From NCBI GenBank assembly GCA_037043015.1, contig CM073323.1, positions 3,596,001-3,660,000 of the forward strand: 64,000 nucleotides of DNA, read 5' to 3'. The notes beneath the pieces are model-generated. The model was not told where the DNA came from. It saw only the letters and a program-made list of their open reading frames with translations, and made no database searches. Positions 6,115-64,000 of this stretch are shown here, piece by piece (the first letter of the stretch is position 1; each line of letters starts with the position of its first letter). This DNA is from Bryum argenteum. Lineage: Eukaryota; Streptophyta; Bryopsida; Bryales; Bryaceae. The position numbers were made by a program, and so were the translations under genes.

Positions 6115-7096
6115 TTAACCCCTAAACGCCCAAGCCTATTTTTAGCAGAAAAGCACATTTCCATAGAAATTGTCATTGATGAAAATCAAGAGAAGCTATT
6201 AAGATCTCAACCGTACAAACTTGTAATAGACTTATCGAAGATTATGTCGACCAAAATTTGAGTCATGAGGCCTTATAGATCGAGAGATCATAACATATTA
6301 ATATCAAAAACAAACTGCAAAATTTCATCATTTTCACTTTGAGGTGGAAATGCTACCAATATACCTATTGCAATGAAAAAATCACCAACTAGAAAGATGT
6401 TCAACTTCATCTTAATAAGTCCTTTACCCAACAAAAATTCATCAAAAAAATTTCTTGGCTCAAATAAAATCCATGCAATGGTAAAAACTACCGAACATTT
6501 TACAAAGGAAAAATAGTCCAAAACTAGATCCTTTGCATTCAATTTCATGCCTTATCTTCAAAACATCTTCGATCTTGTTAAGGTTTCTACCACTTAGACT
6601 AGACTCTAATTGGAGGCCATCCCAAACAATTAAGTTGAAATCCTACGGTGGATGAGGGAGATATAGCTCCTCAAATATCATCCATTTTCTCACTTTTTTT
6701 GTTGACAAAACATCATTGCAAATCCAATAGCAAAATCATTTGGATCAAAAAACTTCTCACTACAAAGTTGTTAAGAATCACTTTAAGATCATGACCATGA
6801 AAGAAAAAAATCATGAAAAACTATTTTTAATTTCACATAATTGGCTTGCAATGGTAATACATGCCCCATGCTTGGAAACCCAAAAACAAGAGTTGTCTTC
6901 ACTAAAGTGCATTCCATTAATTCATACTTTATTGTATGGGCTTGAAAATTTTACAACACAAACTAGACTTGATTTGGAACCTAATCCAAGTAATTTCATG
7001 CAAAACGGACCTCAGATGAAGAAGATATGGCTCTTCAAAGTTTCTGATGTACATCCAAAATGTCGTTTTTCGACATCGTGGGCGTTTAAGGCTTAA
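6115..7096 (+). mobile_element. Non-autonomous TTAA-ended element, family A, complete copy
   Basis: The left end reads TTAACCCCTAAACGCCC and the right end GGGCGTTTAAGGCTTAA. These are inverted repeats of 17 bases with two mismatches, each ending in TTAA. The span is 982 bp. There is no transposase frame; the open frame at 6740-7096 is not kept in the related copies. Other copies lie at 271-660, about 30770-32760 (minus), 37215-38069, 40673-40955 and 63658 to the window end. TTAA at both edges with C-rich ends is the mark of piggyBac-type insertion. That class is an inference because no transposase is present. Confidence 0.72.
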
Positions 7097-7221
7097 ACTG
7101 AAAAGCAACCATCCTTAACTACCTTCACTTTGTTTTTAAATCCTCAACATTTCTAAAATTAGATTAACGTTGACTTATTTGCAACTCATGGACTTTTTGC
7201 AACTAATGAAGAACCTTGGTT

Positions 7222-7432
7222 TTATCGGCAACCATTCGATACATCCCCACATCAGGGACTTTCGAAAGGCCATAACTCACTTAAAATTTGTCCAAATCAA
7301 ACATATGAGGTGTTTCTTGACATCTACATTTTTTGTAGATATCAAAAACACCTCTTATGTTTAATTTGGACAAAATTTGACTAAGTAATGACCTTTCAAA
7401 GATGACTGATGGAGTTTAGAGGTAATATCGGC
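7222..7432. repeat. Long foldback (imperfect hairpin)
   Basis: Core arms at 7259-7328 and 7333-7402 are reverse complements over about 70 bases with a few mismatches, around a 4-base loop. Pairing continues more weakly outwards to the ATCGGC-like ends near 7224 and 7430. Transcribed RNA would form a long stem. It may be a foldback MITE or a hairpin small-RNA source; no coding potential is seen. Confidence 0.75.
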
Positions 7433-9130
7433 GAACAGCCGACATTACTTTTGGACTATGAATTTGTCCGGAATTAGTCAAATATCAGTTTTGACCTTTT
7501 TTGACTAGGAATTTTAGGGGTTGACTAAGAGAAGCATGATAGACCCTTGCAACCTCCGTGCCCTTACAATATTTTTCCTTGTGTTGGCCATTTTAAGTTG
7601 ATGCCCACCTTGTACCAATACTTGTATTTAGATTAATCACAATCTAGCCTCTAAACTTCTTAAGAACAAAACCTTGCATTTCTTGTGTTTGGAGGCTTCT
7701 TATGGATAAATTATGAACCTAAATGAAGTTTGCTCAAATATATATGAAGTCACAATCACTAGATTGTTACTCTACATTTAAAACTCCTCAATGATATACT
7801 AATAATAGGTGTGAAAACCCTTTGAGGTTCACAATAGATCCAAAGTAGTCGTTAGAGCTTCTCAAGGTTATCAATTCTCACCTCATGAGAAGTGATAAAG
7901 AAAACATAATTGAATTTCAAGCAAGTAGTACACAATATTGCTTAGTGTGCTCAACTTCGCATATTGCATCGTATCAACATTTCTTAACTCAGATAAATGT
8001 CCTCAAGGAGTAGTTGATGAATATAAAAATCTCTAGGTTTTCTAAGATTTTATAAAAAGTAATTGAGGAACCATATATAATCATCCTAACCAGCTTGGTA
8101 TATAATACAAATCATAAGATTCAGGCATAATGTTGCATTGGAAATCCTACAAAGATGACAGAAAAATTGCCTCCAAATTATTAATTGCAATATTAGAAGG
8201 TTCCTAAATTCCACTAATAAATCACTTATGATTCTTAAAGTTTGACAAAATTCATAAGAATTTTTTTCCATTGCAATTGAGACTCATAACAATGGTTATG
8301 GATCTCTTTACGCTCAAATAATCACTCCACAAATTGACATATGAATACCATTTGATGAAAACATCATAAAACTCAAGTTAGGTTTGGCGGCCTTAATATC
8401 CCTACAAACCTAAACGCCCAACCTTTGCTAAGTCCACACCCAACTAAAAAATTGCATAGGAATGAAGAACACAACTTGTACAATAAAAACTCAAGGGGAT
8501 GAATAACAACGTTATTTGTAGTTTTAATTCCCTCCAGATATAGCAAGCCTCATCATAATTGTGAACGTATTTTTCAAAAATTTAGAGTGTAAAATGTCAC
8601 CCTAAAGCTCAACATACACCCAAGAACGAGTTGTTCAAAAGACATGAAAAAGTAATGTATGAACTAAACTCTAAAGTACTCACAATGATACAAATTGTTA
8701 TATAACCACAACTATAGTAGAGTGGTCCAAAATGGAGCAAGTCCCACAATGAAGCTCTAGTATTCTTCACTCATAGGTACACAATAGCTTCTCCATACAA
8801 CAGAACCATGTACTCACTACAAACATTATAGGGTATCACTTTAGGGCACGATTTAAAATAACACCCATATTACCAACTTCAAAAAATCATAACTCAGTGT
8901 AGAAGAGTTCAAAAATGATAATTCTACTTACTCAAGCTTTCCACTAATTTTCCCCATGCACGAAAATTGCTTGCACTGGTAACATGAAAAATGCGCCATT
9001 AATGGCCACACTACTATACCATCTCTTAAAATTGAATTTTCTAAAAAAGAAGCGAAATTCCTCAAATGTTTTTAAGAATGGGGGCTCATGAGTAGCCATT
9101 ACTGGAGGAGGCCTGCCCCTTCCCCACTCG
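7433..9130. other. AT-rich intergenic DNA
   Basis: No gene, RNA or clean repeat end is visible. Open frames are short and lack homology I can recognise. Confidence 0.5.
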
Positions 9131-13435: not shown

Positions 13436-14023
13436 TTAAGCCCTGATTTTCCTTGCAGACCAATATGGTGTTTTGCCATTTTGAGCAACCTAGGTTTATG
13501 TGTTGAAATTAATATTATTGACTAAGATTTTTACTAAGTGTTTCCTATACTACATGTGTGTGTGTGTGCAACAAACTCCAAACTTAGATTCCAATTTTAG
13601 TGTTTCTGAAAGCAAAACTAGTTTTCTCATCCTAGTAGGGCAAAATAATTTTTTCTTTATTTTTGAGATTTTTAATTTTCAATTTTGGAAATAGGTTCAT
13701 AACCAAATCAAATTCTTGAGTTCCAAAAGGTCCCAAGTCAAAAAGTTTACCACTTCTACAAGGGCAACCTTCAAAATTTATAAGAGCAAGCCTTGGAGTC
13801 TTTATAAATTAAAGTAAATTTTTTAGCACAAACTTTGGATGTTATAATCTTGCAAATGATAAACATCCGATTGTCAGTTCTTAAAAGCAGGCTCAATTAT
13901 GAGATCTTACAGTTGGAAGTCTAAAAAATGTACTAAACTTCATTGCACCCTCTCATGGGTGCATGGAGGTAAAAAATTGCAGTTTTGAGGTTTCAAGCTC
14001 CAAAAACACAGTAAAAAGCAGGG
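13436..14023 (-). mobile_element. TTAA-element family C, inverted copy
   Basis: Read on the minus strand, this segment follows the complete family C element at 40057-40642. Shared blocks include GCAGTTTTGAGGTTTCAAGC near 13980 and GATTCCAATTTT near 13588. The left edge begins TTAAGCCCTGA and the right edge ends GCAGGGG, so the ends have decayed. It abuts, and probably interrupts, an ankyrin-coding exon that starts at about 14024. Confidence 0.6.
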
Positions 14024-15150
14024 GCTCTTTTACTACGCTGTAAGGAAAGGCTACATAAACGTGGTGATATTATTGGAGAATCTTGATGATGGGGAGGAAT
14101 GTGAGATCATCGAAACCTTCTTGACGGCCCTCGGAAACTTGAACGATATTGATACAAAACCCATGTTCACGAATCTTATCAATTTGTTAAAGATCGCTAG
14201 CGAGCAACGGCACAGCGAAATGACCACTTTCTTAGTCAAGACTCTAGCCCCTAAAGATCCTTGATACAAAATTGTCTAAATTATCACAAAGGACCCTCTT
14301 CTACTTCAGGCCCGAAAAAACTCAATCTAAGCATTAATTAGAAGATCCAACCGTAGGATCTTGAAGTGAACTTGACCCTATACTCATATGTCAAATTTGA
14401 ACCGTTAATTTTTTTCCGATTTTGAGATTATAATGGTCAAAGTTGGCTGACTTTTTTTTCCTGCGGAAACCCCAAAAAGCCATTTCGGCTTTCTTGGATC
14501 TTTAGGGGCCAGTAAGATAGATCTAGGTTGGTAGCAAGGAGTGCAAGAAACGGGACTCTGTTGCATTGGGCTGTGTAAAATGGAGAGCTCGCCATCGTTC
14601 AAGACGTGATGTCTCCAGAATCGATTCCAGCAGACAAGACGATGACACAGGGAGGGAAAAAGAGAGCAATTGAAGCAGCCATCGTCAAGAAAAAGGAAAC
14701 TGCGATGAGGCAGATCGAGATGCTGTTGTTGGACAGGAGCGACGTGAAGGACTACATGGACAGATTGTACAGGGATAGGCAAATGTATGTCGATGCTTCG
14801 AACTCTCTTCTTGTCGGAGCTGCACTGATTGCAGGTGTTGCATCTGTGGGATGGTTGCAACCGCCTTCGGGGTACACCGATGAAGCAGTCGTCAAAACCA
14901 CCACTTCAGCACTCTGCTTCTTCTTATTCAATGCGTTGGCTTTCTTCGGAGCCATGCCATGGGTGCTGTGATTTCGGGAGCTGTTGGTGCTCTCTTGGAC
15001 GAAGTGCCTTCCTTTCGAGCACGCGCTCGGCTCTGATGTGGACAATCTCGTTGCTCATCATCTCCGTTGTTTGTGTTTCGGGTGCTTTGTGAGTGCTGGA
15101 GTTGTGGTGTTTCCACTTGTTGGAATTGGGTTTCCGAAGACTCTTTAGTT
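14024..15150 (+). pseudogene. Ankyrin-repeat/PGG-domain protein, broken
   Basis: Three pieces of one gene are visible. The first, 14025-14247, encodes LFYYAVRKGYINVVILLENL, an ankyrin-type repeat, and stops where a 261-bp element begins. The second resumes near 14528 with ARNGTLLHWAV-NGELAIVQ, another ankyrin-like unit with an in-frame TAA at 14576 (AAA to TAA would fit). It then reads in the same frame through a basic coiled segment to the PGG-like block NSLLVGAALIAGVASVGWL (about 14800-14860) and a first membrane helix. The third needs a frameshift near 14955 to continue with further hydrophobic segments. Intact relatives (ITN1/ACD6 type) are membrane proteins in salt and defence responses. 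Two insertions, a stop and a frameshift make this a pseudogene. Confidence 0.72.
14248..14508 (+). mobile_element. 261-bp element with CCCCTAAAGATCC inverted ends
   Basis: CCCCTAAAGATCC at 14248 is perfectly inverted at 14496-14508. The ends resemble the TTAA-flanked families, but the flanks read CTAG and CCAG instead of TTAA. That suggests an off-consensus target or later mutation. It sits inside the ankyrin/PGG pseudogene. Confidence 0.68.
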
Positions 15151-16621: not shown

Positions 16622-17392
16622 TTAACCCCTATTGTCGAAAAGAGCCATTTTGTGGTCGATTTGACTCTTAGGGTCTTAGTTACTAAGTATAGATCCTTTG
16701 AGGTTGAAACTTTTGGTAGATTATAGAGTTTTTCCATACCTTTTCAAAAGTTATAATAGCTTTTCAAAATTCTTCTAACTTTAGGAGATATTCAGGGACC
16801 TAGTTTGAAAACACTAATTGAAATCTGCCAAAAACTGCCCAAACTCTGGTATATGCTCATTTATTCTCAAAACGCGCCCAATTAAATAGCTGTGACTTTA
16901 AAAATCCAGCAAAAAATTGGGAATTTTCTTTTTTTTCAATTTTTGTTTATTTGTACATGTAGAACAGGTACCAAGGCATGTACCGTTTGGATTCCCAATC
17001 CAAGAATTTTTCATATGCCCATTCTATTACAAAGAACCAGCCTTTGTATTTGAATTTCAACATACCTCCATGTGAAATTTGAAGCATTTCTATAGGTTGC
17101 ATAGGACCAACAAAAACAAAAATTGTATAGACGTAATCTTGACTCACTTTGGAACAAGAATTTTAAGAGCCTCAACTCAAATTTCTCTTAAAATTTGTAT
17201 TTTTGGCTCACAAAACATTTCAAACCCATTGTACCACTAGTGAGAAAAAAAACTCTTTTTTCAACTTTGAACAATATGATCTCACAATTGGTGAGAAATT
17301 TGAATCTAAGATCCGGTACACACATACATGTACAATAGGGTGACATTCAAATTGGCCGTTTAGTAGTTCCAGGGATAGTGTCCTACACTGCT

Positions 17393-17909
17393 GCCAACTT
17401 TGACACCCTCCCCAAAGCTGAGAAATTTTTATTTTACCATCAAAATTTGGGGACAACATCATCTTTATGTTGAAAACATGCATACCAAATTTCAAGTCCA
17501 GGAGACTTATACAAAAAAACTTATGCAAGATCCACCAACATGGGATAGCTGTGAGAAAAGTGTCACAGCTGCCAACTTTGACACCCTCCCAAGAATTGAG
17601 GAATTTTTTTTGCCCATGAAATTTTTGGAGCAAAAACATTTTTATGTTGTTTGCATGTGTAGAAAATTTCAAGTCCAAAAGACCCATACAAAAAATAATA
17701 TTCCAAATCTATCAACATGTGTAGTTTTGAGAAACAAAGGGGAAAACCATTTTACTTCTTCCAACTTTGACGCCCTCCTTAGGATTGAGTTTTTGTTGAT
17801 ACATGGTGAAATTTTTGGCACAAGATCATCTCTACGCTGGTAACATATGAGATAAATTTCAAAGCCAAAAGATGTACACAAAAAAGTTATACCATATCTA
17901 CCAACGTGT
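17393..17909 (+). repeat. Three ~180-bp direct subrepeats, left arm of mariner element
   Basis: Units begin at 17393, 17571 and 17759. Each carries a CCAACTTTGA(C)(A/G)CCCTCC block, a central ATTTTTGG/ATTTGGGG block and an AAATTTCAA(G/A)(T/G)CCA block. They diverge from one another far more than the left arm does from the right. The 147-residue open frame across them is a by-product of the repeat. Confidence 0.8.
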
Positions 17910-18908
17910 ATGTCCTCCATTAGCGTCAATCACTGCTAGTAACCTAGAGGGCATAGAATGACATAGTTGAAGGAGCTTTGTACCATTGACTAACTTCCAC
18001 TCTCTTTCAAGAACTACCTTCAACACATCTAAGTTTCTAGGGCATTGTTTGCCATGTTGCACAACATCTTTTAACATCCTCCAAACGTTCTCGATTGGAT
18101 TGAGATTGGGAGAGTTTGCAGGCCAGTTGAGCTTTTCGAGAAGGTGGCTTTGTCTCCATTCTTCACATATTTTGCTCCTATGGACGGGTGCCTCATCTTC
18201 CATAAGCACTCCTTGTGGAATTTGACCCATGAAATGAACCAATTTGGCATCGTAAACCACTTCTATAAAATCCTTAGCAGAACGTTGACCTTTAGGCATA
18301 AAGACAAGTTCTGACTTTTGTCCTCCGGCAAATGCGCCCCAAATCATTAAAGAAGTCCTTCCACTTTTAAAAGTATGAGCTAGACAACTTGATGAATAAC
18401 GCTCGTATGGACTTCTCCAAACATGAATTTGCCGAGAATTTTGTCCAATTTCAAAAGTGGATTCATCTGTCCAAACAACACGCTCCCACTCTTTTGTACT
18501 CCATCCACGGTACTTCTGAGCAAAAGCTAATCATTGAGACATGTGACGAGGTGTCAAGAAAGGTTTTTTGACTGCAATTCGACTAAAAATGCCATTTTTA
18601 TGTAAGACCCTTTGAATAGTACGCCTACACACTTGAGTAGGACATGCATTGGTAATCTCTGAGAGTGAAGAGCAACGATAAATTTTTGAGTAATGCACAA
18701 TACTACGAACATCTCTATTACTAAGCTTTTTCGCGTGACTTCCACCGCAAGGTTTGCGCTTGTAGGTTCCATCTTCTCTAAATGTTTTTACTAACCTTGT
18801 AACTGTTCTAATAGGAACTCCAATAGTAGCTGCAATTTGAACTCCTGTAAATCCTCCCTCACTCAAACCTATGATGCGAGCACGAATTTCATCTGAAATT
18901 GCCATCAT
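17898..18908 (-). pseudogene. Tc1/mariner transposase with one in-frame stop
   Basis: The reading frame runs for 336 codons from the start at 18908 with a single TGA at 18531-18533. The relatives I recall have Arg there (R-LAFAQKYRGW), so CGA to TGA is the likely change. The N-terminus has a helix-turn-helix pair (GFTGVQIAATIGVPIRTVTR, then a second paired-like unit). The catalytic triad is visible as WTDES, MEDEAPVHRS and SPNLNPIENVW. The first two give Asp and the last Glu, with Asn where Asp usually precedes LNPIE. Length and domain order are normal for the family. It would be close to intact but for the stop. Confidence 0.85.
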
Positions 18909-19422
18909 AAACTTATAGAGTGCGTGATGCTACATCAGTAGAGTAGGGATTAGAGTAGAGCAAGGGGGAGAGAAGGGAGCCAAGGTGCTGGAGCAGAGAG
19001 GAGAGAGAAGGGTCGCCAAAACACAAGCCCATATGCATACATGAAAAATCATTTTGCTCTTACTCACTCATCATGTATGCCCAATGTGAATCAACACTCA
19101 TGCATCCCACAATACAACACTCTCTGTTTTGAGGATTGTCTCAACATTCAGTCTATCACAAATCACACACACCATTCCCTTTACATAGTGTTCAATAGAT
19201 ATTTAGAAGAAAAAATTTGCCTGTGTCTAATGCACACTTTATGGCCAAGTGGATTTTTCTGCATGGAACATCTCTTCACTTCTTCATTCAGATGTTATTG
19301 ATCTTTTTGAGAAGCATTTATGTTTGGTGGCTTACTCACATTATTGAGTTCAATGAAAAAGCATGAGGTGTCAAAGATATTTTGACATTTTCAATATGAC
19401 CTTCAAATTGTTTATCATAGTT

Positions 19423-19945
19423 ACACATGTTGATAGATATGGAATAACTTTTTTTATGTATGTCTTTTGGCTTTGAAATTTATCTCATATGTTACCAGCG
19501 TAGAGATGATCTTGTGCCAAAAATTTCACTATGTATCAACAAAAACTCAATCCTAAGGAGGGCGTCAAAGTTGGAAGTAGTAAAATGGTTTTCCCCTTTG
19601 TTTCTCAAAACTACACATGTTGATAGATTTGGAATATTATTTTTTGTATGGGTCTTTTGGACTTGAAATTTTCCACACATGCAAACAACATAAAAATGTT
19701 TTTGCTCCAAAAATTTTATGGGCAAAAAAAATTCCTCAATTCTTGGGAGGGTGTCAAAGTTGGCAGCTGTGACACTTTTCTCACAGCTATCCCATGTTGG
19801 TGGATCTTGCATAAGTTTTTTTGTATAAGTCTCCTGGACTTGAAATTTGGTATGCATGTTTTCAACATAAAGATGATGTTGTCCCCAAATTTTGATGGTA
19901 AAATAAAAATTTCTCAGCTTTGGGGAGGGTGTCAAAGTTGGCATG
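19423..19945 (-). repeat. Matching subrepeats, right arm of mariner element
   Basis: This is the reverse complement of 17393-17909, with the same three-unit structure and only scattered differences. The 150-residue minus-strand frame at 19492-19944 mirrors the left-arm frame and is not a gene. Confidence 0.8.
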
Positions 19946-20128
19946 AGTGTAGGACACTATCCCTGGAACTACTAAACGGCCAATTTGAATGTCACCCTAT
20001 TGTACAAGTTAGGTACTAGATCCTACCGTTGCATACTCAAAGAAATTTTCAATAGTTAAAAATTTGCACCTTGCAATGAACAATGGTTGATTTGAGGCCT
20101 TTTGTGGCCTTACGACATTAGGGGTTGA

Positions 20129-20318: not shown

Positions 20319-21147
20319 TTAACCCCTAAAGTCGAGAAGAGCCCGAATCGGGTCGTTTGCAGTCTGGTCAGCCCCGTACTTACTATATTTAGTTCGTCTG
20401 ACATTGAAACCTTTTGCAGGTTGAAGAGTTTTTCCATAACTTTCCGAAAAGTCATTTCATGCTCCAAAATTCACGGTCAAAGTTTGAAAACACTATTTGA
20501 AATCTGCCCAAAACTGCCCAAACTGAGGTATATGCTCGTTTATTCTCAAATCTGCCCAAAATAAATAAGATCGCAGGAACTTCAAAAATTCACCAAAAAT
20601 TGAGATTTTACTTTTTTTTAAGTTTTGTTTTTTGTACTTGGAAATAAGGTTTTAAGGCATAGTTTCACTGTTTGGATCTTTCATCCAATTATTCTTCACG
20701 TGCCATTTTTATCGTCAAAGAGGGGCCTTTGAAGTTGAATTTCAGCATACCTCCATGTGAATAATCAAGCATTTCTTTATGTTTTATGGGTCGCATGAGG
20801 GTAAAAATTGCATAGGCATGTTCCTAACTCACTTAGGAACAAGAATTTGAAGAGCCTCATTTCAAGTTTAGTCTTGAAGGTGGTTTTTTGGGCTCACAAA
20901 AAAATTTCGAACCCATTTTGCAACAAGGGAAAAAAACTTTTTTTCAACTTTGAATGATATGATCTCACAATTGGTAAGGAATTTCAAACTAAGTTTTGGT
21001 ACACACATACATGGACAAGTTAGGTACAAGATCTTACGGTTACATACAGGAGATTACGTCAATCCTTTAAAATTTTCATCTTGAATTGAAAGAGGGTGGT
21101 TTTGAGGAGTTGTGACAGTCTTGGGGGCTTTTGACTTTAGGGGTTAA
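20319..21147 (+). mobile_element. TTAA-element family B, copy 2, complete
   Basis: The element begins TTAACCCCTAAAGTC and ends GACTTTAGGGGTTAA, a perfect 15-base inverted repeat including TTAA. It spans 829 bp and has no coding frame. It is the clearest example in the window of the TTAA-bounded end structure. Confidence 0.82.
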
Positions 21148-25589: not shown

Positions 25590-25917
25590 TTAGCCCTTAA
25601 ACCTGAGGGGCTTCTTTTCCAACAGAATCTGCTATGTAGCTCTCACTGGACTCAACTTTTGACTTATATTTTTATATTTTGATGTCAAGCTAGTCACCTT
25701 CTTGAGATGTATTCAAAAAGTGAAATTTTACAATTTAAATCACAATTTGTATGAGTGATTTTTGTGTTTTAAAAGGACTGTGATAGGTTGGTTGAGATTG
25801 TACATAACCTTGGAGAAGGTTGCAAGCTCATCATTGATTGGTTCATCTATGATGCCCAAGTCCTAAAGATGTTGTGATTCAATTTTGGGTTGCTCGTTTA
25901 GGGTTAATGTGGAGGAT
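25590..25917 (+). mobile_element. TTAA-element family E, copy 1
   Basis: The edges are TTAGCCCTTAAACC and CGTTTAGGGTTAA. The body is repeated in inverted orientation at 26778-27137. Shared blocks include GAGAAGGTTGCAAGCTCATC and ATCACAATTTGTATGAGTGA, allowing for mismatches. No coding frame. Confidence 0.65.
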
Positions 25918-26535: not shown

Positions 26536-26781
26536 TTAACCCCTAACGCTCCGAACAACCATTTTGACATGGTTGTTTTGACAAATACTCAAACTTTGAC
26601 TCAATATATCTCAACATCCACATGATGAAATATGACGAAAATTGGTGGGTATTCTAATTAGACAGTTACAAACAAGATCTTACGGTTGAATTTCTCAAAA
26701 TCAATATCAAGAAAATATTGTCCACGGATCACAGATATGGCCATCTCGAGGTCAGTGTAGAGCTAGAGCATTAGGGGTTAA
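26536..26781 (+). mobile_element. TTAA-element family F, 246 bp, complete
   Basis: It starts TTAACCCCTAACGCTC and ends GAGCATTAGGGGTTAA, an inverted repeat with one mismatch. The interior includes AAGATCTTACGGTTGAA, a motif also seen in other TTAA families. Its right TTAA is shared with the left edge of the next element. Confidence 0.75.
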
Positions 26782-27137
26782 CTCTTAAATGCCCATGGGT
26801 CCGAAACAGGCAACCCAAAATTGGATCACAACATCTTTTGGACTTGGGCATCATGAATAGTGCACTTTTTGAGCTCGGGCATCATGAATGAACCAGTCAA
26901 TGATGAGCTTGCAACCTCCTACAAGGTTATGTGCAATCCCAACCTACCTACAACAATCCTTTCAAAGCACAAAATCACTCATACAAATTGCGATTTAAAT
27001 TGTAAAATTTCACTTTTTGAATGCATCACAAGAAGGTGACTAGTTTGACATCAAAATACAAGAGAATAATTGAGTACAATGCTAGAGATTCTGTTGGAAA
27101 AAAACCCCTCGTGCTTGATTGGGCGTTTAAAGGTTAA
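26778..27137 (-). mobile_element. TTAA-element family E, copy 2, inverted
   Basis: It begins TTAACTCTTAAATGCCC and ends GGGCGTTTAAAGGTTAA, and is the inverse of 25590-25917. The two copies form roughly 330-bp arms around an 860-bp spacer. Confidence 0.65.
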
Positions 27138-32620: not shown

Positions 32621-32622
32621 TA

Positions 32623-33216: not shown

Positions 33217-33449
33217 TTAACCCCTAAAGGTCTGAGCGTGCCGTGGCGACCAGTAGAATACGATGTATTTTGGTTGTATTTGGAGTGAATGCACACCTTT
33301 AATGGGTTTGAGTTCAAAGAAGAAGTTGACATTTGAATTAATGCGGTTCTAGTGAGCTATTACAATTCCAGTTTAGAGTTTCTTGTTGGTAGCTAATCCT
33401 AATTATACGACAGCATACATACTATCCCCAAGGGACTTTTAAGGGTTAA
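33217..33449 (+). mobile_element. TTAA-element family D, copy 1, 233 bp
   Basis: It starts TTAACCCCTAAAGGTCTGAG and ends GACTTTTAAGGGTTAA. A second copy of exactly the same length lies inverted at 44539-44771 and is nearly identical. The flanks differ right up to TTAA, which fixes the borders. Confidence 0.85.
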
Positions 33450-37214: not shown

Positions 37215-38069
37215 TTAATTTTTAAATGCCCACGGGGCTCTGGAGCTTGAAAACACAAGTGTCATAGATGAAAATGAAGGTAAGCTATTTAGATCTTAGC
37301 CGTACAATTTTGTAGTAGACTTATTGTAGGTCATGCGGACCAACACTTGATTCATGAAGCCTCATTAATGGGAGATTAAAACGTATTATCTTTCAAATTA
37401 GTCTACAAAATTTCATCAATTTCACTTTAGAGTGGAAATTCTATCAACAAACAAATTGCTATCAAAAAATACCAACCACAAAGTTATTTACATTTATCTC
37501 AATAACATTATTGGGCATTCGAATCCATTCCTTATCTTTGAAACATCTTTGATTGGGTCTAACTTTCTATTCACTGAAACAAGATTCTAAGTGGAATCCA
37601 TCTCAAACAATAAATTTGAAATCCAACATTGGATGAAGGGCATATAGCTCCTCAAAGATCATTCATTTATTTCACTTTTTCAATTGTAGGAATATTATTG
37701 CAAATCCAACTCCAAAGTTATTTGGATCAAAAAAATTCCAACTAATTTTTTATTGGGATTCATCTAATTATAATTATGCAAAAATATACGTGAAAAAGTA
37801 TTTTTGATTTCACATAATTGGCTTGCAGTGGTAAAACATCCTTTATATATAATATCCGAAAACCAAAAGCTGCTTTCACTAAAATGCATGCCATTATTTT
37901 GTACTTCTTTTAACAAGTCCGCAATTTCACTACATGGACTAGACTTGATTTGGAACCCACTTAAAGTGATTTTGTCAAAAATTGAGTGGATGAAGAATTT
38001 ATGACTCTTCAAAGTTCCTGCCTTCATCCAAAATGTAGAATAACGACATTGTAGACATTCACAGGTTAA
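37215..38069 (+). mobile_element. TTAA-element family A, 855-bp copy
   Basis: It begins TTAATTTTTAAATGCCC and ends GACATTCACAGGTTAA. The body aligns with 6115-7096 over most of its length, with ends more decayed. No coding capacity. Confidence 0.62.
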
Positions 38070-40672: not shown

Positions 40673-40955
40673 TTAACCCTTAAACGGTTTGACTCATTCT
40701 TGACAAAACATAACACATTCTCAAAAATGTTGTCAAAGATAGAAACGCAGATCATTTATTAATAAGATCTCAACCATACAATCGTCTTGTAGACATATTG
40801 TTCATCATGTGGGTCAAATTTTGAGTCATAAGGCCTCACGCGATCATAACGTTTTACCACTCAAAAAATGTCACAAATCTCAACATCTTCACTTTGGAGT
40901 GACAGTGCTACGAATGGACTTGTTGCAATGACAAAGTCACCAACTTTTACCAACT
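40673..40955 (+). repeat. Truncated family A copy abutting the kinase gene
   Basis: It begins TTAACCCTTAAACGG and follows the left part of the 6115-7096 element, including AGATCTCAACCATACAA, TCATGTGGGTCAAA and TTGCAATGACAAAGTCACCAAC. It ends where the last exon of the kinase gene begins, and appears to supply that gene's final codons and stop. Confidence 0.6.
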
Positions 40956-44538: not shown

Positions 44539-44771
44539 TTAACCCTTAAAAGTCCCTTGGGGATAGTATGTACGCTCTCGTATAATTAGGATTTGCTACC
44601 AACAAGAAACTCTAAACTGCAATCGTAATAGCTCACTAGAACCGCATTAATTCAAATGTCAACTTCTTCTTTGAACTCAAACCCATTAAAGGTGTGCATT
44701 CACTCCAAATACAACCAAAATACACCATATTCTACTGGTCGCCACGGCACGCTCAGACCTTTAGGGGTTAA
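44539..44771 (-). mobile_element. TTAA-element family D, copy 2, 233 bp
   Basis: This is the reverse complement of 33217-33449, the same length and nearly identical by eye, with TTAA at both edges. The surrounding DNA is unrelated, so each copy is an independent insertion. Confidence 0.85.
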
Positions 44772-46415
44772 CCCAATCAATGTATCAATAAATTGAATAA
44801 GAATACAATCGTGAACCGAGGTAGCAAGGTTACCCGGCGGGAAGAATTTCGCATTTTTATGTGCCTATTCACGACTTTTGCGAGCTGGAACGATCCGGAG
44901 CAGATCACTGAAAAAGAGCCAGCTATGGCGATCGAGCATGCCAACAAGCCTGACAAGCTATTCTCTAGCAGCAACAAGGGGGTGTAAGGTACGATGCTCG
45001 AAACCGCTCTTGAATTTGAGACTGGCTAGCTCATAAGGAGTGGCCAAAGGAATTAATTCTTGAAAAGCCTATGTAAGAATGAACTAGTAGGGGTCATAGA
45101 TTATTGTTTTTATTTTCAACTACTTCTAGATTATGAAAATCTACTTCTTTAATAGAATATTGTTCAGCAATCCTTCCTACCCACCTATGTACCAAACTAC
45201 CAACGTACGAACTTACCAACCTACGAACTTATCAACCTACGAACTTATCAACCTACAAACTTACCAACCTACAAACTTACCAACCTACGAACTTACCAAC
45301 CTACGAACTTACCAACCTACCTACCTTCTTTTCTGTATTAAAATGATATGAATAAAGAGAGAGAAAAAGGGAGAAAAGAAATCGTTTGAGGAAATGGTAG
45401 ACACGGGATACTTTCTTAAAAGTACCACGTGAAGACCTTTCCCGGCGGGACGACAGGAATCATACTAGTAAGTGTATAGCAAATTACACACTAAAAAATG
45501 TACATGGTGGTTACATCAAAATTTGAAACTCAAAGCTATAATGTACTTCATATTTGAATGCCTTTAATCTTGATCCTATTCTATGTGATTTACGGGCATC
45601 CTGCCTTTGACAAGATGATTCTCAAAGAATGAGAGATGAGCTCATTCATACAAAACATTGTAAAGTAAAAATGGAACATATTTTCTGAGGCGTGCATGTT
45701 ATACAGAACTACATCACCTTATTAAGCAGGTGGTGATGCATTTGGCATCAATTGATGAGAACCAACTCAAGAGAAGAGGCAGGATTTCAATATTACAAAG
45801 GCTACTTAGTACACTGTATGATTAGAATGTTCTGTGAGGTGATATTATATTGGTGTCAGTTCATCCATGAACTCGATTTGGGCAACAAATTTGAAGTAGC
45901 AAAAATCAAGAATCTTCAAAACTTCAGCATTGAATCGAGATGTGAACGGAGTGCGCCATATCTGGAAGCATTGGTACTTTTCCTTCGTTTTGCATGGAGG
46001 TGTCTTGCGTGATAAACCGAACATCTTCACAAGCCAAACAATCCCCCTGTCCTCCTTTTGCTATCATACATTCTTGAAGGATTGGTTCAGCGAAAATCAG
46101 GCCAATCACAGGCACTTAGAATGCCAAAGTTAAATAGATGACATCGCCATACCGTTCTCGTGTGCCGTGCAACGAACTCCCCCAACAACAGACGCCTCTA
46201 TAATGGCCTTCCTTTCCAACAAAGCAAAAGCGTTGTCGTTGTCATTCCATTCTGTGCAACTCTGAACGCTCATCAGTCTATCGACACGGACTACGATCAG
46301 GACGATGCCACTTTTATCATTCCCGTAAATGACATTAAGCTCCGCGAAATGGACCTTCATTGCTCTGAGATCGTTGTATGTAAGAGGTGACAGAGAGTTC
46401 GAGCTACTGATCAGA
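44772..46415. other. Intergenic DNA before the flavoenzyme gene
   Basis: Contains a 16-bp minisatellite at 45205-45316. Other open frames have no recognisable content. The last 200 bases may be leader for the gene at 46416. Confidence 0.45.
45205..45316 (+). repeat. 16-bp minisatellite, seven copies
   Basis: The unit CTACGAACTTACCAAC repeats seven times with single-base variants (G/A and C/T). The 72-residue frame of YQPTN and PTYEL is just this repeat translated. Confidence 0.9.
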
Positions 46416-49106: not shown

Positions 49107-50545
49107 TCAAAATGTGCTATTTCTTGCTGTTCGTTTATGATACCATTACACCTCCTCCTCGCCCGCATCCCCACACCTGCAGGGATACCTCGTGAATACC
49201 GTATTGTGCTTCGCGCTTACCCCTCCTTATCCTCTTATCCTACTCAATCGGACGCTTAGAAAGCGCTACATTTGTGCGTCTGGATGAATGACCTAACTAC
49301 TACTATGTGAGGACTGCTCATCTGCTCATTGTAATTCCCATTTGCCAAGCCTAATAAACTCTGCTCATGCTCCGAAGTCCAACTAACTACAAATTACTTC
49401 AAGGCTCTACGACAGCACAGCCAGGATGTCCGACACCCGCAACACCACAAACTGCGTTCCATCCTTGCTCTTGAAGTCGTTCCCCGCGTACTTCGAGTAC
49501 AGCACCGTGTTACCTTTGCTCACTTCCAGCGGCCTCCGCTCGCCATCCTCGCCGTAAGTGCCCGGTCCTGCCGCCACCACTGTGCCGATCACTGGCTTCT
49601 CCTTGGCACTGTCCGTCAGCAGCACGCCTCCCGCCGTCTTCGACTCCATCTCCGTAATCTGGATCAGCACGCGGTCACCTGCCGGCTCCAAATCCTTCAC
49701 GTCGTCCGACGACAGTAGCCCCACCACGTCGTCCTCCTTCAGCAGCAGGTGCGGCTCGCCGTTGAAATCAACCTCCGTGCCCGCGTACTTGGAGTACACA
49801 ATCTTCGCGCCCGTCTTCACGGCCGGCTCCAGCTTCTTGTCGCCGATGGTCTTACCCTCACCCACGGCCACCACCTCGCCACCCTGGGGCTTGGTCTGGG
49901 CCGTCGTCGGCAGCAGGATACCGCCAAGGCTCTTCTCCTCCACTACCTGAATCTTCACCAGGATGCGGTCGCCCAACGGCTTCAGGGTCGAGAACTTGGA
50001 TGCCACTGCGGCCGCGGCCCGCACGGCGACGCAGCGACGAGGCGAGGAGGAGATGGCGAAGGAGACGTTGCTAGGGTTGCGCGCGCTCGTAGCGCGAAGA
50101 CCCTGGAACGAGGCCAATTTGCAGGGTGCCTGAGCGTGCAGGGCCGCTCCCACCTGTGCTGCCATGGCGACCTAACTGATTGCGATGGGGCAAATTGAAA
50201 TGCTGAAATGGGAGATGCTGTGCGCAATGGGCAATGGACACAATGCAATGCAATGCAATGCGATGGTTGAGGCGGATTGATTGACTGACTAAAGAGAAGC
50301 AAACGGAGGACGATAAGGAGGGGAGGGGTTTTGGGGGTTAAGGCCCAACAGAATGCTCCAGAAGGCCCGAGTGAACACAAAGGAGTTGGGCTGGTCTGTT
50401 GCTCTGTTCCCTCACTTGTGGATAATGCCTTGCGCGCCTCTGCTCTCCCCTGAACCAGCTCCTAGAACTCTTCACCATCTCAGTCCACATTCCAACGAAC
50501 GGATGGGCTGCCTGGATGACTTCACGTCCTCCGTACCCTTCCCAC
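49107..50545 (-). repeat. Inverted duplication, left arm (carries CPN20 copy 1)
   Basis: The arm is the reverse complement of about 51035-52487. Homology covers the 3-prime flank (ending at ATGGTATCATAAACGAACA-like sequence), the whole coding region and the 5-prime flank to a block reading GATGGGCTGCCTGGATGACT. Identity is highest in the coding region and lower in the flanks. Confidence 0.9.
49407..50165 (-). CDS. CPN20: Chloroplast co-chaperonin CPN20, copy 1
   Basis: CPN20 is the plastid partner of the Cpn60 folding chamber, made of two fused Cpn10 domains. This uninterrupted frame gives 252 residues. Residues 1-50 form a Ser/Arg-rich transit peptide. Domain 1 (about 58-150) has the mobile loop EEKSLGGILLP, and domain 2 (about 155-252) has ESKTAGGVLLTD. 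Each domain keeps the roof-loop YSKYAG segment. The ATG context and length match plant CPN20. Absence of any intron is unusual beside the intron-bearing neighbours. Copy 2 at 51432 differs by only five residues (by eye). Confidence 0.95.
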   Translation of the reverse strand: MAAQVGAALHAQAPCKLASFQGLRATSARNPSNVSFAISSSPRRCVAVRAAAAVASKFSTLKPLGDRILVKIQVVEEKSLGGILLPTTAQTKPQGGEVVAVGEGKTIGDKKLEPAVKTGAKIVYSKYAGTEVDFNGEPHLLLKEDDVVGLLSSDDVKDLEPAGDRVLIQITEMESKTAGGVLLTDSAKEKPVIGTVVAAGPGTYGEDGERRPLEVSKGNTVLYSKYAGNDFKSKDGTQFVVLRVSDILAVLS

Positions 50546-51034
50546 AGAAACAAGATACCGACGAAGTAGGAATGAACTCGACCATGAATGATGCAATTAG
50601 GCAGAAGATAGTGGAGATTAGCTCCTTGAAAGCCATGCGCTTCCTCAAATCCTGTAGTGAAGGAAAATCGTTGAAACACTGATACTTCAATAAAAAAAAC
50701 ACTTTCAACCAAACTGTTCTTGATTATCATCCTAAGATCACACTCGCCTCAAAAATCATGATATAAAAAAAGTAAAGCATGCAATAGTAAAATATATTCC
50801 ACAAAATAATAACATGCCTATGCGAACCATTTCGGATTAAGCCAGAAATTAGACTTGGTTGGTACAATCAATGTAGTCTAAAATGAACATTGGTTGAAGA
50901 TGATATGAATTTGTACAGTTTACGTTTTTTATCAATGTGAATTTTTCTAACATACAAAAAATTCAAGGCACAATCTCAATTTGATGAAAAGTGCCCAATA
51001 CATGCTCTCTCTGAGTTTGAGATTGTGACGAAGA
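50546..51034. other. AT-rich spacer at the centre of the inverted duplication
   Basis: About 490 bp with no match between its two halves and no gene. It separates the divergent CPN20 genes. Confidence 0.6.
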
Positions 51035-52487
51035 TGGATGAATGTCTCCACGAGGGACTGAGTGAGTGGGGACGTGAAGTCATCCAGGCAGCCCATCTGT
51101 TCGTTAGAATATGGAATGAGATGAGAAGAGTTCTGCGAATGCTCCTCTGAGGCGCTGAAGACATTATCCACAAGTGAGGGAACAGAGCAGAGCTGTGGGG
51201 GGCAAGCGTCCAATTCCTTTCTATTCACTCGGGCCTTCTGGAGCATTCCGTAGAGCTTTAACCCCAAAACCCCTCTCCTCCTTATCGTCCTCCGTTTGCT
51301 TCCCTTCAGTCAGTCAATCAATCCGCCCCAACCATCGCATTGCATTGCATTGTGTCCCATTCCCCTCCCATTGCACATTGCGCGGAGCATCTCCCGTTTC
51401 AGCAGTTCAATCTACAATCAGTTAGGTCGCAATGGCAGCGCAGGTGGGAGCGGCCCTGCACGCGCAGGCACCCTGCAAATTGGCCTCGTTCCAAGGCCTT
51501 CGCGCTACGAGCGCGCGCAACCCTAGCAACGTCTCCTTCGCCATCTCCTCCTCGCCTCGTCGCTGCGTCGCCGTGCGGGCCGCGACCGCAGTGGCACCCA
51601 AGTTCACGACCCTGAAGCCGTTGGGCGACCGCATCCTGGTGAAGATTCAGGTGGTGGAGGAGAAGAGCATGGGCGGCATTCTGCTGCCGACGACGGCCCA
51701 GACCAAGCCCCAGGGAGGCGAGGTGGTGGCTGTGGGCGATGGCAAGACCATCGGCGACAAGAAGCTGGAGCCGGCCGTGAAGACGGGCGCAAAGATTGTG
51801 TACTCCAAGTACGCGGGCACGGAGGTGGATTTCAACGGCGAGCCACACCTGTTGCTGAAGGAGGACGACGTGGTGGGGCTACTGTCGTCGGACGACGTGA
51901 AGGATTTGGAGCCGGCAGGCGACCGCGTGCTGATCCAGATTACGGAGATGGAGTCGAAGACGGCGGGAGGCGTGCTGCTGACGGACAGTGCCAAGGAGAA
52001 GCCAGTGATTGGCACAGTGGTGGCGGCAGGACCGGGCACTTACGGCGAGGACGGCGAGCGGAGGCCGCTGGAAGTGAGCAAAGGTAACACGGTGCTGTAC
52101 TCGAAGTACGCGGGGAACGACTTCAAGAGCAAGGATGGAACGCAGTTTGTGGTGTTGCGGGTGTCGGACATCCTTGCCGTGCTGTCGTAGAGCCTTGAAG
52201 TAATTTGTAGTTAGTGGGACTTCGGAGCATGAGCAGAGTTTATTAGGTCTGGCGAATAGGAATTACAATGAGCAGTCCTCACGTAGCGGTAGTTAGGTCA
52301 TACACTCACATGCTCACACATGTAGCGATTGCGGAGCATCCGATTGTGTAGAATAAGAGCAGGATAAGATGAGGGTAAGCGCGAGGCAGCTGATGGCATT
52401 CACGAAGTATCCCTGCTGATGTGGGGATGATGAGGAAGAGGAGTTGTAATGGTATCATAAACGAACATCAAGAAATAACACATTTTG
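51035..52487 (+). repeat. Inverted duplication, right arm (carries CPN20 copy 2)
   Basis: Mirror of 49107-50545. Both leaders hold an (ATGCA)n tract near the gene start, and both 3-prime flanks share GAGCATGAGCAGAGTTTATT. Confidence 0.9.
51432..52190 (+). CDS. CPN20: Chloroplast co-chaperonin CPN20, copy 2
   Basis: An uninterrupted frame of 252 residues with the same transit peptide and double Cpn10 structure as copy 1. The differences seen are A52T, S56P, S59T, L80M (in mobile loop 1, now KSMGGILLP) and E103D. Domain 2 is identical. The gene is head to head with copy 1, with 1266 bp between start codons, so each has its own copy of the leader and proximal promoter. Nothing suggests decay; both are probably expressed. 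Confidence 0.95.
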   Translation: MAAQVGAALHAQAPCKLASFQGLRATSARNPSNVSFAISSSPRRCVAVRAATAVAPKFTTLKPLGDRILVKIQVVEEKSMGGILLPTTAQTKPQGGEVVAVGDGKTIGDKKLEPAVKTGAKIVYSKYAGTEVDFNGEPHLLLKEDDVVGLLSSDDVKDLEPAGDRVLIQITEMESKTAGGVLLTDSAKEKPVIGTVVAAGPGTYGEDGERRPLEVSKGNTVLYSKYAGNDFKSKDGTQFVVLRVSDILAVLS

Positions 52488-58162: not shown

Positions 58163-59131
58163 CTAAAACTGTTCACTCTCCTCACTCCATACTTGTTGGG
58201 TGTCCATGACAACACCTCCTGTTGAATCACCACCGAGATCACCACCATTGCCTTCATTCATATTTTCATCCATCTCCAGAAATTCTTGCAAAAAAGTGTC
58301 AAACTCTTCTTGTGTAATTTCTTCATTAGAGAGCTCTTGAATTGGCTCTAGAGGCATTCCTTCCTCTAGTTGTTGAATGAAGGACATGGGGTCTTCACTC
58401 TCATTCCATGGTGTTGTGTGTAGATTGAAGTTCTCATCTACATAACATGCATGAACTTCATTTAAGAGCTCTACTTGCTCTCCACACTCTAATTCATTCT
58501 TTATCACTTGAGCAAAGTCCAAGTCTTGGTGGGTGAAGACACTCTCATCACATGGAATTGGTGCATTAACATGGTTCCAATTTTGTTGCATGGGTTCTTG
58601 AGCTCCATTGGGGAGCTCTACTTGCTCTCCACACTCTAATTCATTCTCTAGTTGTTGAGCAAAGTCCATGTCTTGGTGGCTCAAAAAACTCTCATCACAT
58701 GAAGTGTTGCAAGATGGAGTTGGAGCCGTTTTGCCCTTTCTTCGGGAGGTGTTCTCCAACCACACTTGATTGTCTTGCATGAGCAAGCGGGTTTGGAATT
58801 GGCGGCTACAAGCCATGCATTTGAAGCGCGGTTGCAAGGGGTGGTTGTTGTTGTAATACTTGAATGTGGCGTTGTTTGCCACATTACAATGGGGGCATTG
58901 TTTGTACAAGCCTTGCAACTCTAGGGGATCCTCATTGCGTTTTTTGAGGTAGGTCTTGCCTTTGGAGCGGCCACATGAGCTCCATGAAAAGAGTTTGTTG
59001 CAATTGCAACACTTGAAGCGTGGTTGGTCCTTCTTGTTGTTGTTGAAGTACTTGAAGGTGTGAAGAGAGGACACATACCCACAAAAGTAGCATTGTCTTA
59101 GCAATGTCATATCCACCTCCATGTCACCCAT
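58163..59131 (-). CDS. Protein with two Dof-like zinc fingers and an acidic repeat tail
   Basis: An intronless frame of 322 residues. Two C-x2-C-x22/23-C-x2-C fingers lie at residues 14-44 and 79-108. The second, QCPHC with KYYNNNHPLQPRFKCMACSR, closely resembles the Dof finger (YYNN, QPR, CxxC), while the first, CYFC with KYFNNNKKDQPRFKC, is a more distant copy. The RRYWTKGG tail of true Dof domains is missing, and spacing is one or two longer than the canonical 21. The acidic C-terminal half has two repeats beginning CDES, each with DFAQ and NELECGEQVEL, and could be an activation region. A nuclear DNA-binding role is likely by analogy. I do not recognise the exact family. Confidence 0.78.
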   Translation of the reverse strand: MGDMEVDMTLLRQCYFCGYVSSLHTFKYFNNNKKDQPRFKCCNCNKLFSWSSCGRSKGKTYLKKRNEDPLELQGLYKQCPHCNVANNATFKYYNNNHPLQPRFKCMACSRQFQTRLLMQDNQVWLENTSRRKGKTAPTPSCNTSCDESFLSHQDMDFAQQLENELECGEQVELPNGAQEPMQQNWNHVNAPIPCDESVFTHQDLDFAQVIKNELECGEQVELLNEVHACYVDENFNLHTTPWNESEDPMSFIQQLEEGMPLEPIQELSNEEITQEEFDTFLQEFLEMDENMNEGNGGDLGGDSTGGVVMDTQQVWSEESEQF

Positions 59132-59273
59132 AGTCGCTTGTTATCCAGAGAGTGAAGCAAATAATCGGTCGCAAATAGGCACAGAAGGGCCAGAGGATGT
59201 GAGAGAGGAGGAGAGCGGAGGTTGAGGGAAGGAGGGCGAGTTGTAATGAAATTGTAAGTGGCCTGAGGTATTT

Positions 59274-59281
59274 CTTATATA
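59274..59281 (-). promoter_or_regulatory. TATA box of the Dof-like gene
   Basis: On the minus strand GTATATAAGAAA lies 143 bases before the ATG at 59131, at a suitable distance for a TATA element with a leader of about 110 bases. Inference from sequence and position. Confidence 0.5.
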
Positions 59282-60940: not shown

Positions 60941-63657
60941 AGTATTTGGTTGGTTGAATATATTGAATTGACCGTTTCACAATTGCCTGAAGAGATCCTC
61001 ATTGGCATAGAGCATTAAAATTCTCTTGAAGGTCAATTGATCAATCCATTCTATCTTTGCGTGTTGTGCTCAAATAGAAAATGCAGGCTATTTGTGCACG
61101 AGAGAGTACCTGACAAGCCTGTATGAGTCTCGGAAAAAAGCCTCGAAGTAACCTATCAAGTACGATTCACAAGTAAGATATCTCATACCGCATCTCATTG
61201 AAGGTGAGGTTGCAATCTCTTATTGGTCAGTTTACCATCGGTAAAGAGTTGATTTGCCACTATTCCCCACCACTCCACCGTTCTCTCACGTCCCAGTCCG
61301 TGAATTGATGATCTGCTGAACCGATTTTCCACTATTCTTTTGCCCTGCAAACAAGCAGATCGGAAACCAGACTAACTCAGCTCAAGGTATTCTAGTATAC
61401 TTCTAACTACATGAGATATTCTCTAGTCGAAGTCGATACAGCCAGGGTCGAGAAAACGGGATACGAGAAATACCCGAGAGCCGCGGAGGACATCAATCGG
61501 GATGCGAAATCCATTAATTTTGACCACAAGCTGCGACAGCACTGATCAAGAGAGCAGCCTCTTCACGAGAGTCACCACCGTCACTGCTCTCTCGCCGCAC
61601 GCAGTCGTCACAATTGCCTGCACAATGGCATCGTATCAGCAATCATATCAAGCTGCATGATGCATGTGGGTACACGGTGGGATTCGAACCACAGTTTTGT
61701 GTGGTGATAGCTTCATCAAAATACTCCAAAATAGGCCGTCGGGGGCAGGCAAGCGTTATACAATAGCTCTGGGCTATCGAGTATGCCTCCCTCACTGCTT
61801 CTTCTCTCACTTCCTGCAAAACCCCAACCATTTGGCAGCTTACAAACATGGTCATGTTCTTAGAGATTTGGAGCTTGAAAGTTGCCATAGTGCGAGATGG
61901 TTCGAGGTAAGCATGTTAATCATTGTTACGTGTGAAATAGGTTAGTGGCTGGGTCTGCTAGAGGGTGTATAGTGGAGATCCTCACTTCCTTGTGATGGGG
62001 TTTGCTTCTTGTAACGTCGATCCGTTTGTAGTAAAGCGAACATCGAGATGGTTGACCATCTCTACCTGAACGACCAGTCTCCTGACAGTAAGCCTCAAAG
62101 CTTCACGGACAGCCATAATGAATCACTCGTCGAACATTTGACTTATCAATGCCCATTCCAAGGACGTTGGTAGCCACCACAATCTGCACTTCTTCGCTTG
62201 AAAATACCCTGCCACAAACCAGCAAACCAGCTAGTAGAGTCTATTCAGCACTTAGAGGTCATTCCAGATCATTTATTTACTCCTTCATATTCCCTTTTCC
62301 ATTCCTCACCTCCCATAAGTACTCCTCGAGGACGACCTGCATTACCATTTAATATCATTCGGTAGCTTAGGGTTTAGGGTTTAAGAACTTCAGTCTCGCA
62401 TTAACGGTTCAGGCATATCTGTTCACATTGTGATACCACAAACATATCCAAGTACATACTGCAGCACAGGTCATTACATTTTAATATTGACATTTGAGAG
62501 GTATCCGTTCACAACGACGCCCACCTGAGTTCGGCAGTGGCAGCAGCTTCCTCTTGGACCTAAATCCATAAATCAGAAGCCCAAACCCACACCTGCACAG
62601 TAGGAAGGTGGTAGCATATTCAGGTATCTCCAACTCATCCTCACAAGACGAGCAAAAGACTGTAGAGAGAGCCATCTTCCAAATACCCGCGTTCTCGCTC
62701 CGACTGATGCAGTGAAGACAACAACGTGCAACCAACGAAGTATTTGACGTTCAACCTCAATTGACAGTGCAACTTGTGATTAAAAGGCACGATAATCCTC
62801 CAGCAGCACAGCTCGCTCCTTCTCATGGTTTGGATTTGTTTTCGCTGCTGCATCTCGACATTCCTGTGAAATACCCCATGTCAATCTAACATTACAATTG
62901 CTCAACATTCGAAGGCTGTCAATCGCATTGCATTTCATGCTAAGGATTGAAGGAATCTGAACAAACTGCACCTGCTCGTGCATGATGCCGATATCGGCAA
63001 TCTAGTTGGCCACTTTCTCCCAACCCCACTGCCTTCTTTCACCCTGAGAAGCCCTATGAATGGAGTTGTGGCCTCGGTTTCCTCCACTCTGGCCGAAAAA
63101 TCCATCCTCTGCAAATCAATCAAAGCGAATCACTTGTAAACCTTCAAAGGATAAATTAGTTGAGGACGTGAGCCGCGGTTCGCATCCGCGTCGCCATCTT
63201 CGCTGATGGTGCATGCCCTCCATCCAAGTTCGATCCGTTTCGTTTCCTGACCACTCTCTTGATGAATCCCAGAGTCTCATCACCGACACCAAAAATCGAT
63301 CGGGCCCCGCAAATCAAGACAGAGGTGTTCGATATCCACACTGTCGGCCGATCTTCTGAAACCCCGACGTTTTGAATGAGCCCCATAAACCCACACCTCT
63401 TTATTATCACACTCTAAGGGAGTCTGCTCAAGAATGGCTCACATTGCAGAATGGGAAATGTGTATTGAAATATACAATGTCATTACATTTTGTGCATTGG
63501 AAAAGTAAGTAAGAGGATAGTCCAAGTAATTCATCATGTGTGTATACTACAATAATGTGTTTATGAATTTCTTAGGTGGACTTACATGTGTTTTTGAAAT
63601 GGTTGTGTAAATTGACACCCTGTAATGTTTGGAATAATTGCATGATGATGTTGGAGT
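60941..63657. other. Region without recognised genes
   Basis: Several short frames lie on the minus strand (for example 62780-62983, ending ERAVLLEDYRAF after an apparent TTTCACAG acceptor at about 62863, and 63156-63410). Their arrangement suggests a multi-exon minus-strand gene that I cannot name or join. A T-arm-like sequence near 61680 was rejected as a tRNA. Confidence 0.35.
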
Positions 63658-64000
63658 TTAACCCCTAAACGTCCTTGGGGTAATTTTAGCCAAAAACTCA
63701 TTTTCAAAAAAAGTGATATAGACGAAATTAAAGATAAACTATTCAGATCTCAACCGTACAAACTTGTAATGGACTTGTAGTAGATCATGTGGACCAAAAC
63801 TTGACTCATGGGACCTCATAGATTGCGAGATCATAACATATTAGTGCGCAAAACAGGCTACAAAATACCATCATTTCCACTTTGAAGTGAAAATACTACC
63901 AACATGAAATTTGCAATAAAAAAATCAGCAACTAAAAATTTGTTCATCTTCATGTCGAAGACACTCTTGTACCAAGAAATTTCTTGAAAAAAAAATCTTG
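63658..64000 (+). mobile_element. TTAA-element family A, left part, runs off the window
   Basis: It begins TTAACCCCTAAACGTCC and follows the element at 6115 closely, with GATCTCAACCGTACAAACTT, GATCATGTGGACCAAAA and GAGATCATAACATATTAGTG blocks. It is cut by the window edge. Confidence 0.7.

Follow-up and report, generated by a model that had tools for sequence, protein, structure and literature searches.

The 64-kb stretch of DNA analysed here (the window) carries a series of short repeats bounded by TTAACCC(C/T)TAA, which raises the question of how these repeats came to be dispersed. The original prediction recognized at least seven length classes of non-autonomous elements that share these ends but have mostly unrelated interiors, and took the palindromic TTAA at both edges as a sign of piggyBac-type insertion. 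We find that the repeats are almost certainly non-autonomous piggyBac transposons, similar to miniature inverted-repeat transposable elements (MITEs), that would be mobilized by a piggyBac transposase encoded elsewhere in the genome. The classes are denoted here as families A to G (G being the 261-bp class), and the copies in the window as A0-A4, B1-B2, C1-C2, D1-D2, E1-E2 and F1 (Table 1).

Exact TTAACCCYTAA ends occur 13 times in the window, compared to a mean of 0.08 and a maximum of 1 in 100 dinucleotide shuffles, none of which reached 13. These ends belong to five complete elements (829, 246, 233, 233 and 586 bp), all with TTAA at both sides, and to single ends at positions 6115, 40673 and 63658; the five complete elements are those previously singled out as the best cases. 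Self-comparison of the window revealed further, older members of families A, B, C and E, including B2, which is 73% identical to B1 across 730 columns and was absent from the original list. Exact ends with TTAA are thus seen in four of the predicted classes, B, C, D and F, whereas the right end of A and the ends of E are mutated. The elements, at 233-982 bp, are too short for a full transposase, and the sole window-element frame scanned against the protein library (13989-14264, overlapping C2 and G) had no match in Pfam.

The ends are vastly more common in the genome (258.8 Mb in 25 contigs) than expected from a reversed-pattern control. In counts that cover the whole genome, with individual places only partly listed, TTAACCCYTAAA occurs 11,520 and 11,664 times on the two strands (23,184 in all) against 207 and 194 (401) for the reversed pattern, and TTAACCCCTAAAGTC occurs 219 and 207 times against 1 and 2. 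For D, G, C and F, the best 40 of all candidates were scored in each case, so that the copy numbers are lower bounds. The best 40 of 953 D candidates are, in their main rows, 97-100% identical to the window copy, and the best 40 of 2,224 G candidates are 98-100% identical (98-99% for the 39 copies outside the window). Among the best 40 of 4,971 C candidates, the 39 others show 93-94% identity, and among the best 40 of 594 F candidates, the 39 others show 75-84%; many of the latter span only approximately bases 41-229, and the F matches partly belong to other families. The D copies that were read (12 loci including that of D1, together with D2) have a mean pairwise identity of 99.05%. This spread of identity among families suggests bursts at different times, those of D and G being the latest.

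A profile search for the piggyBac transposase domain (PF13843) produced 116 scored matches out of 775 candidates, all above the cut-off, with the best E-value of 7.4e-82. Six matches tie at 258.4 bits, and the four that were fetched with their flanks (L029-L032) are copies of a 5.7-kb element, P1, that show 99.76-99.84% identity (four of the six possible pairs compared), end in inverted TTAACCCCTAAAGGCCC at both sides and lose homology at the 4-bp flank. When upstream sequence was fetched for five more loci, matching ends were found at both sides in four (P2-P5 in Table 1) and one end only was seen at L023. Thus, piggyBac-like transposase genes are enclosed by ends of the same kind as those of the short repeats, in elements of 4.5-5.7 kb, which is the type of partner that the original prediction had envisaged. 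The P1 protein is similar to the solved structures of piggyBat (9c0f, E-value 1.7e-27) and Trichoplusia ni piggyBac (6x67, E-value 6.5e-25). In the columns set by alignment of P1 to these two proteins, the three catalytic aspartates are present in 21, 20 (L015 has glutamate) and 21 of the 21 domains analysed; an earlier pattern scan had picked up all three in 10 of the 21. A cysteine-rich C-terminal stretch (C..C(5-10)C..C within the last 140 residues) was detected in 13 of 20 frames, several of the seven others being cut by stop codons, and matched no Pfam family. Stop-to-stop frames around the domain span 716-1,002 codons in 12 of 20 loci, with introns left out of account. In P1, approximately 390 residues ahead of the DDE domain of the main transposase frame (L032:1977-4727) have no Pfam match. 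A second gene in the 5.7-kb element was considered and rejected, as neither of the two L032 frames that precede the transposase (168 and 149 amino acids) matches a Pfam family.

The flanks of the copies show what was duplicated on insertion. TTAA is present on both sides in all 13 D copies read, with unrelated flanks, in five of the six C copies and in four of the six G copies. P1 is flanked by TTAA in three of its four copies and by ATAA on both sides in the fourth (L030). Of the five G copies read beyond the window, four are flanked by TTAA on both sides and one (L064) has ATAA on the left, which may represent a second ATAA duplication if one G of the right end has been lost. To look for empty sites, we searched the genome with the joined flanks of 20 insertions; the best 40 of 1,933 candidates mapped to three of the 20 junctions (D at L048, 11 matches; P1 at L031, 18; P1 at L030, 11), and all seven of the empty places fetched align without gaps across a single 4-bp target, four with no mismatch and three with one. 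These sites, whether they precede insertion or follow excision, hold a single target. At L030, ATAA flanks the element on each side, and the 11 unoccupied copies listed have it once; because ATAA is not palindromic, this pattern implies a direct 4-bp duplication of the target and not a part of the element sequence.

This duplication is pertinent to a different reading of the edges, under which TTAA is part of longer inverted repeats of Tc1/mariner (TA target), PIF/Harbinger (TWA) or Kolobok (TTAA) elements and the likeness to piggyBac is due to chance. Tc1/mariner-type transposase frames are indeed present in the window, and TA is contained in TTAA. However, PF13843 transposases are encoded within full-length elements that have these ends, which refutes this reading for P1, and the four target bases duplicated at L030 also contradict it, so that we regard it as very improbable. 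A TWA (3-bp) or TA duplication was rejected in its own right, given that the left TAA and the right TTA are not direct repeats and ATAA is doubled as four bases. Still less credible is the notion that the repeats are telomere-like CCCTAAA sequences, satellites or recombination debris and not transposons: CCCTAAA, the plant telomere repeat unit, lies within the end, but the inverted pairs of ends at fixed lengths, the unrelated flanks and the empty sites refute this idea. The insertion mode originally deduced from the TTAA edges, that of piggyBac, is therefore borne out by the PF13843 partners with the same ends, the 4-bp duplication and the empty sites. Old target duplications seem to be reused as insertion targets: newer elements have landed precisely on the TTAA that borders an older one. 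F1 adjoins E2 in this way (an arrangement absent from the original prediction, in which the TTAA at 26778-26781 is both the right flank of F1 and the left flank of E2), and a GTTTAAGGGTTAA end is adjoined by D in L041 and by F in L070.

We compared 21 domains, those of the 20 best-scoring of the 116 loci and P1; further groups may exist beyond these. The P1 clade (L012, L014, L019, L020, L022, L025-L028 and P1) shows 69-98% identity within it and the P2 clade (L009, L010, L013, L018 and L024) 83-98%; the other groups are L016/L023 (82%), L015/L017/L021 (59-88%) and L011 alone, and identity between groups is 35-48%. The recurring CCGTAAGATCTTG-like block, in which the original prediction saw a hint of common descent or a shared transposase-binding site, is a one-sided box located about 95-118 bp inside one end. 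It occupies a like position in families B, C and F and in P1 (right end), as AACCGTAAGATCTTG, and in G, as AACCGTAGGATCTTG; it was not found in A, D or E. The block is thus common to several families, as proposed, and its binding function is retained here as putative; the single superfamily with common ends is refined into two sets, one that carries the box (B, C, F, G) and one in which the box was not found (A, D, E).

Genome-wide, TTAACCCCTAA followed by AACCGTAAGATC occurs 2,136 times with a gap of 88-118, compared to 63 times at 57-87 and 18 at 119-149, and the reversed-pattern control gives 0 in all three classes; of 100 listed among the 2,136 places, 39 have a total length of 116-118, one has 120 and 60 have 126-130. 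In all eight P1-clade elements with a readable end, the box begins at base 116-117; it begins at 118 in C1, at 107 in B1 (counting inward from the right TTAA), at 106 in G and at 95 in F1, in steps near one helical turn that come from few independent families. A second box ([AG]ACCGTT[GA][GA]AT[CGT]) lies 51 bp further in in six of the eight P1-clade elements and in C1, and 55 bp further in in L014; it was not found in L020, B1, F1 or G. The information profile of the box is biased by rows anchored on the box match (10 of 12 right ends, leaving out L020 and L028, near relatives of L019 and L012), and the only anchor-independent features are the spacing and a TTG that follows the box except in L027.

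The box is present in all nine P1-clade loci with enough downstream sequence (L012, L014, L019, L020, L025-L028 and P1; L026 has no readable end, and L022, with no downstream sequence fetched, is outside the count) and in none of the seven loci of other clades with the 3' end seen (L009, L010, L013, L016, L018, L023 and L024). No box was found downstream in L011, L015, L017 and L021, which have no assignable 3' end; a pair of boxes, perhaps a nested element, precedes the domain in L021. Given this distribution, the transposases to which B, C, F and G belong are probably those of the P1 clade, and the proposed superfamily probably comprises at least two sets of passengers with different piggyBac lineages. 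C1 is similar to P1 at its two ends (bases 111-213, 381-460 and 525-586), a pattern that an old derivative formed by internal deletion would show. The last 33 bp of E2 are 82% identical to the left end of P2; the first 22 bp of A4 are 91% identical to the right end of P2 and the first 27 bp of A1 are 89% identical to the right end of P1, and the assignment of A is weak because these two copies resemble different elements.

In the mechanism that we propose, a DDD transposase of the piggyBac superfamily made from the 4.5-5.7-kb elements elsewhere in the genome would recognize element ends starting with TTAACCCYTAAA, cut the element out and insert it into a TTAA, or rarely ATAA, target, with duplication of the four bases. 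The short elements would be mobilized in trans, with the P1 clade serving B, C, F and G, P2-like transposases serving E and, more weakly, A, and the box acting as a putative transposase-binding site. The genes for the transposases and the ends around them were observed directly, as were the 4-bp duplication, the empty sites and the young copies, and cut-and-paste by a trans-supplied piggyBac transposase is the best reading of these data. Several points weigh against this scheme. Transposition itself is deduced from sequence, and mobilization in trans is suggested by the shared ends. P2-P5 are single elements with ends paired by position and likeness, with no aligned copies. TTAA is present on both sides in only two of the six F copies read, F being an old family with decayed ends, and the window copy of G is flanked by CTAG and CCAG, perhaps an unusual target or the result of decay; the TTAA edges predicted for this 261-bp class are seen in four of the five copies read elsewhere and not in the one in the window. 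No match to D was found among the five autonomous elements compared (P1-P5). The link between box and clade has few independent origins because one clade is set against two others. Finally, PF13843 had no match in 14 control genomes, a silence that says little because these genomes (the one named being Synechococcus elongatus) were not established to be plants.

The box includes an 8-bp palindrome, AAGATCTT, which, by analogy, suggests a role like that of the piggyBat end motifs, either needed or inhibitory. We tentatively propose, as a serious possibility, that this is a plant piggyBac lineage with a clade-specific, one-sided signature, consisting of the helically phased AACCGTAAGATCTTG (starts near 95, 106-107 and 116-118, about 10.5 bp apart) and AACCGTTGGATC 51 bp inward, that is bound or regulated by a long, plant-type transposase. 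If so, a phased box retained in MITE families with unrelated interiors would be required in cis and would match each MITE to a transposase lineage. The block could instead be a mere relic of common descent with no function in transposition, an explanation that we hold to be rather doubtful: the sequence beside the box can also be aligned among B, C, G and P1, and copies of a family inherit one spacing, so that copy counts overstate independence, but the box begins at base 95, 106-107 or 116-118 in families that are otherwise diverged, the spacing preference extends genome-wide, and the presence of the box follows the transposase clade.

The elements share with the piggyBac superfamily, as represented by T. 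ni piggyBac and piggyBat, a DDE_Tnp_1_7 transposase with three conserved aspartates and a C-terminal cysteine-rich stretch, ends that start with CCC, and the TTAA duplication. They differ from these two in the moss-like host, in the long transposase frames as opposed to chains of 578 and 594 residues (9c0f, 6x67), in the element length of 4.5-5.7 kb, and in the box inside one end, often with the second one further in. In piggyBat, end motifs are reported to start at bp 11, 55 and 99 and subterminal sequence lowers activity (PMC11707139), whereas the P1-clade boxes start near bases 117 and 168 and have the palindromic core. The coral CMITEs are likewise piggyBac-type MITEs: they duplicate TTAA, have ends of the form CC[C/T]T and include one family whose ends are shared by an autonomous element. 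They differ in host and sequence, and tandem arrays are reported for them (PMC2872659).

The host appears to be a plant. Contig C12 carries the chloroplast psaA and psaB genes, and its PsaA is closest to 8htu (1732.6 bits) and 6l35 (1712.4), followed by 9lut (1698.2) and 7wfd (1653). Dof is a domain of green plants, and a Dof-domain gene in the window fits such a host. The chain 6l35 is from Physcomitrella patens (PMC7884438), and 8htu is called PpPSI-L (PMC10005731), where we read Pp as the same moss. Judged by these similarities, the host is probably most like a moss. The original statement that this class is little known in plants is fair, piggyBac being best known from animals. It does not hold in absolute terms: several papers name piggyBac for plants in general (PMC10813416, PMC4438587, PMC10140906), as a MITE superfamily of angiosperms (PMC10004981) and, with 1,230 pieces, in a fern (PMC6890710). 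By title or start of abstract, among the papers listed in literature mostly outside subscription journals and without Repbase, we found none on piggyBac elements in a moss; the one moss genome paper among them employs 'piggybacking' with a different meaning. Nor did the literature searched describe a moss with a large piggyBac population that was active recently. piggyBac is a standard genome-engineering tool of animal origin, and about 23,000 such ends are present here in a probable moss; the near-identical full-length copies together with young MITEs would constitute a natural plant piggyBac system and a candidate plant vector, and the MITE families allow end recognition to be read by comparison.

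Table 1. Elements of the window (positions in the 64-kb stretch) and single autonomous elements elsewhere in the genome (by locus).
Element	Position or locus	Strand	Description	Basis
A0	273..652	+	A-like fragment	self-comparison, flank reading
A1	6115..7096	+	982 bp, exact left end, mutated right end (CTTAA)	96% to copies in L004 and L007
A2	37215..38069	+	degenerate A-like copy	self-comparison, flank reading
A3	40673..40945	+	A-like left part, end TTAACCCTTAAACGG	end search, self-comparison
A4	63658..64000	+	A-like copy, cut by window edge	self-comparison
B1	20319..21147	-	829-bp non-autonomous piggyBac element	exact ends, TTAA both sides
B2	16622..20128	-	older B copy, right end TTGA, Tc1/mariner-type element inside	self-comparison, flank reading
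C1	40057..40642	+	586-bp element, both ends related to 5.7-kb autonomous P1	exact ends, box from base 118
C2	13432..14018	-	old degenerate C copy, 66% to C1	self-comparison
D1	33217..33449	+	233-bp element, young family	exact ends, TTAA both sides
D2	44539..44771	-	233-bp element, 97% identity to D1	exact ends, TTAA both sides
E1	25590..25907	+	about 318 bp, mutated ends	self-comparison, flank reading
E2	26778..27137	-	about 360 bp, mutated ends	self-comparison, flank reading
F1	26536..26781	-	246-bp element with box	exact ends, TTAA both sides
G	14244..14512 (element 14248-14508)	+	261-bp element and 4-bp flanks	genome copies, flank reading
P2	L010		5,199 bp	ends of matching kind both sides
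P3	L024		4,469 bp	ends of matching kind both sides
P4	L018		5,412 bp	ends of matching kind both sides
P5	L016		5,286 bp	ends of matching kind both sides

Some of these elements have notable surroundings. The window copy of G adjoins a frame that ends inside it, and the next frame (14579-14971) is PGG-domain-like by eye, suggesting that this copy may interrupt an ankyrin-type gene. The Tc1/mariner-type element inside B2 (17326-20009) has inverted repeats of about 560 bp that are 98% alike and a minus-strand transposase frame with one in-frame stop.

Elsewhere in the window, two diverging gene copies that look like a chloroplast co-chaperonin (named by eye), each with a frame of 254 amino acids, form a large inverted repeat at 49108-52487 (96% identity across 861 nt). 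Dof proteins usually carry one Dof zinc finger, and the single frame at 58163-59140 contains two Dof zinc-finger stretches. A tandem array of an 8-bp repeat, with units like TACNAACY, is located at 45158-45349.

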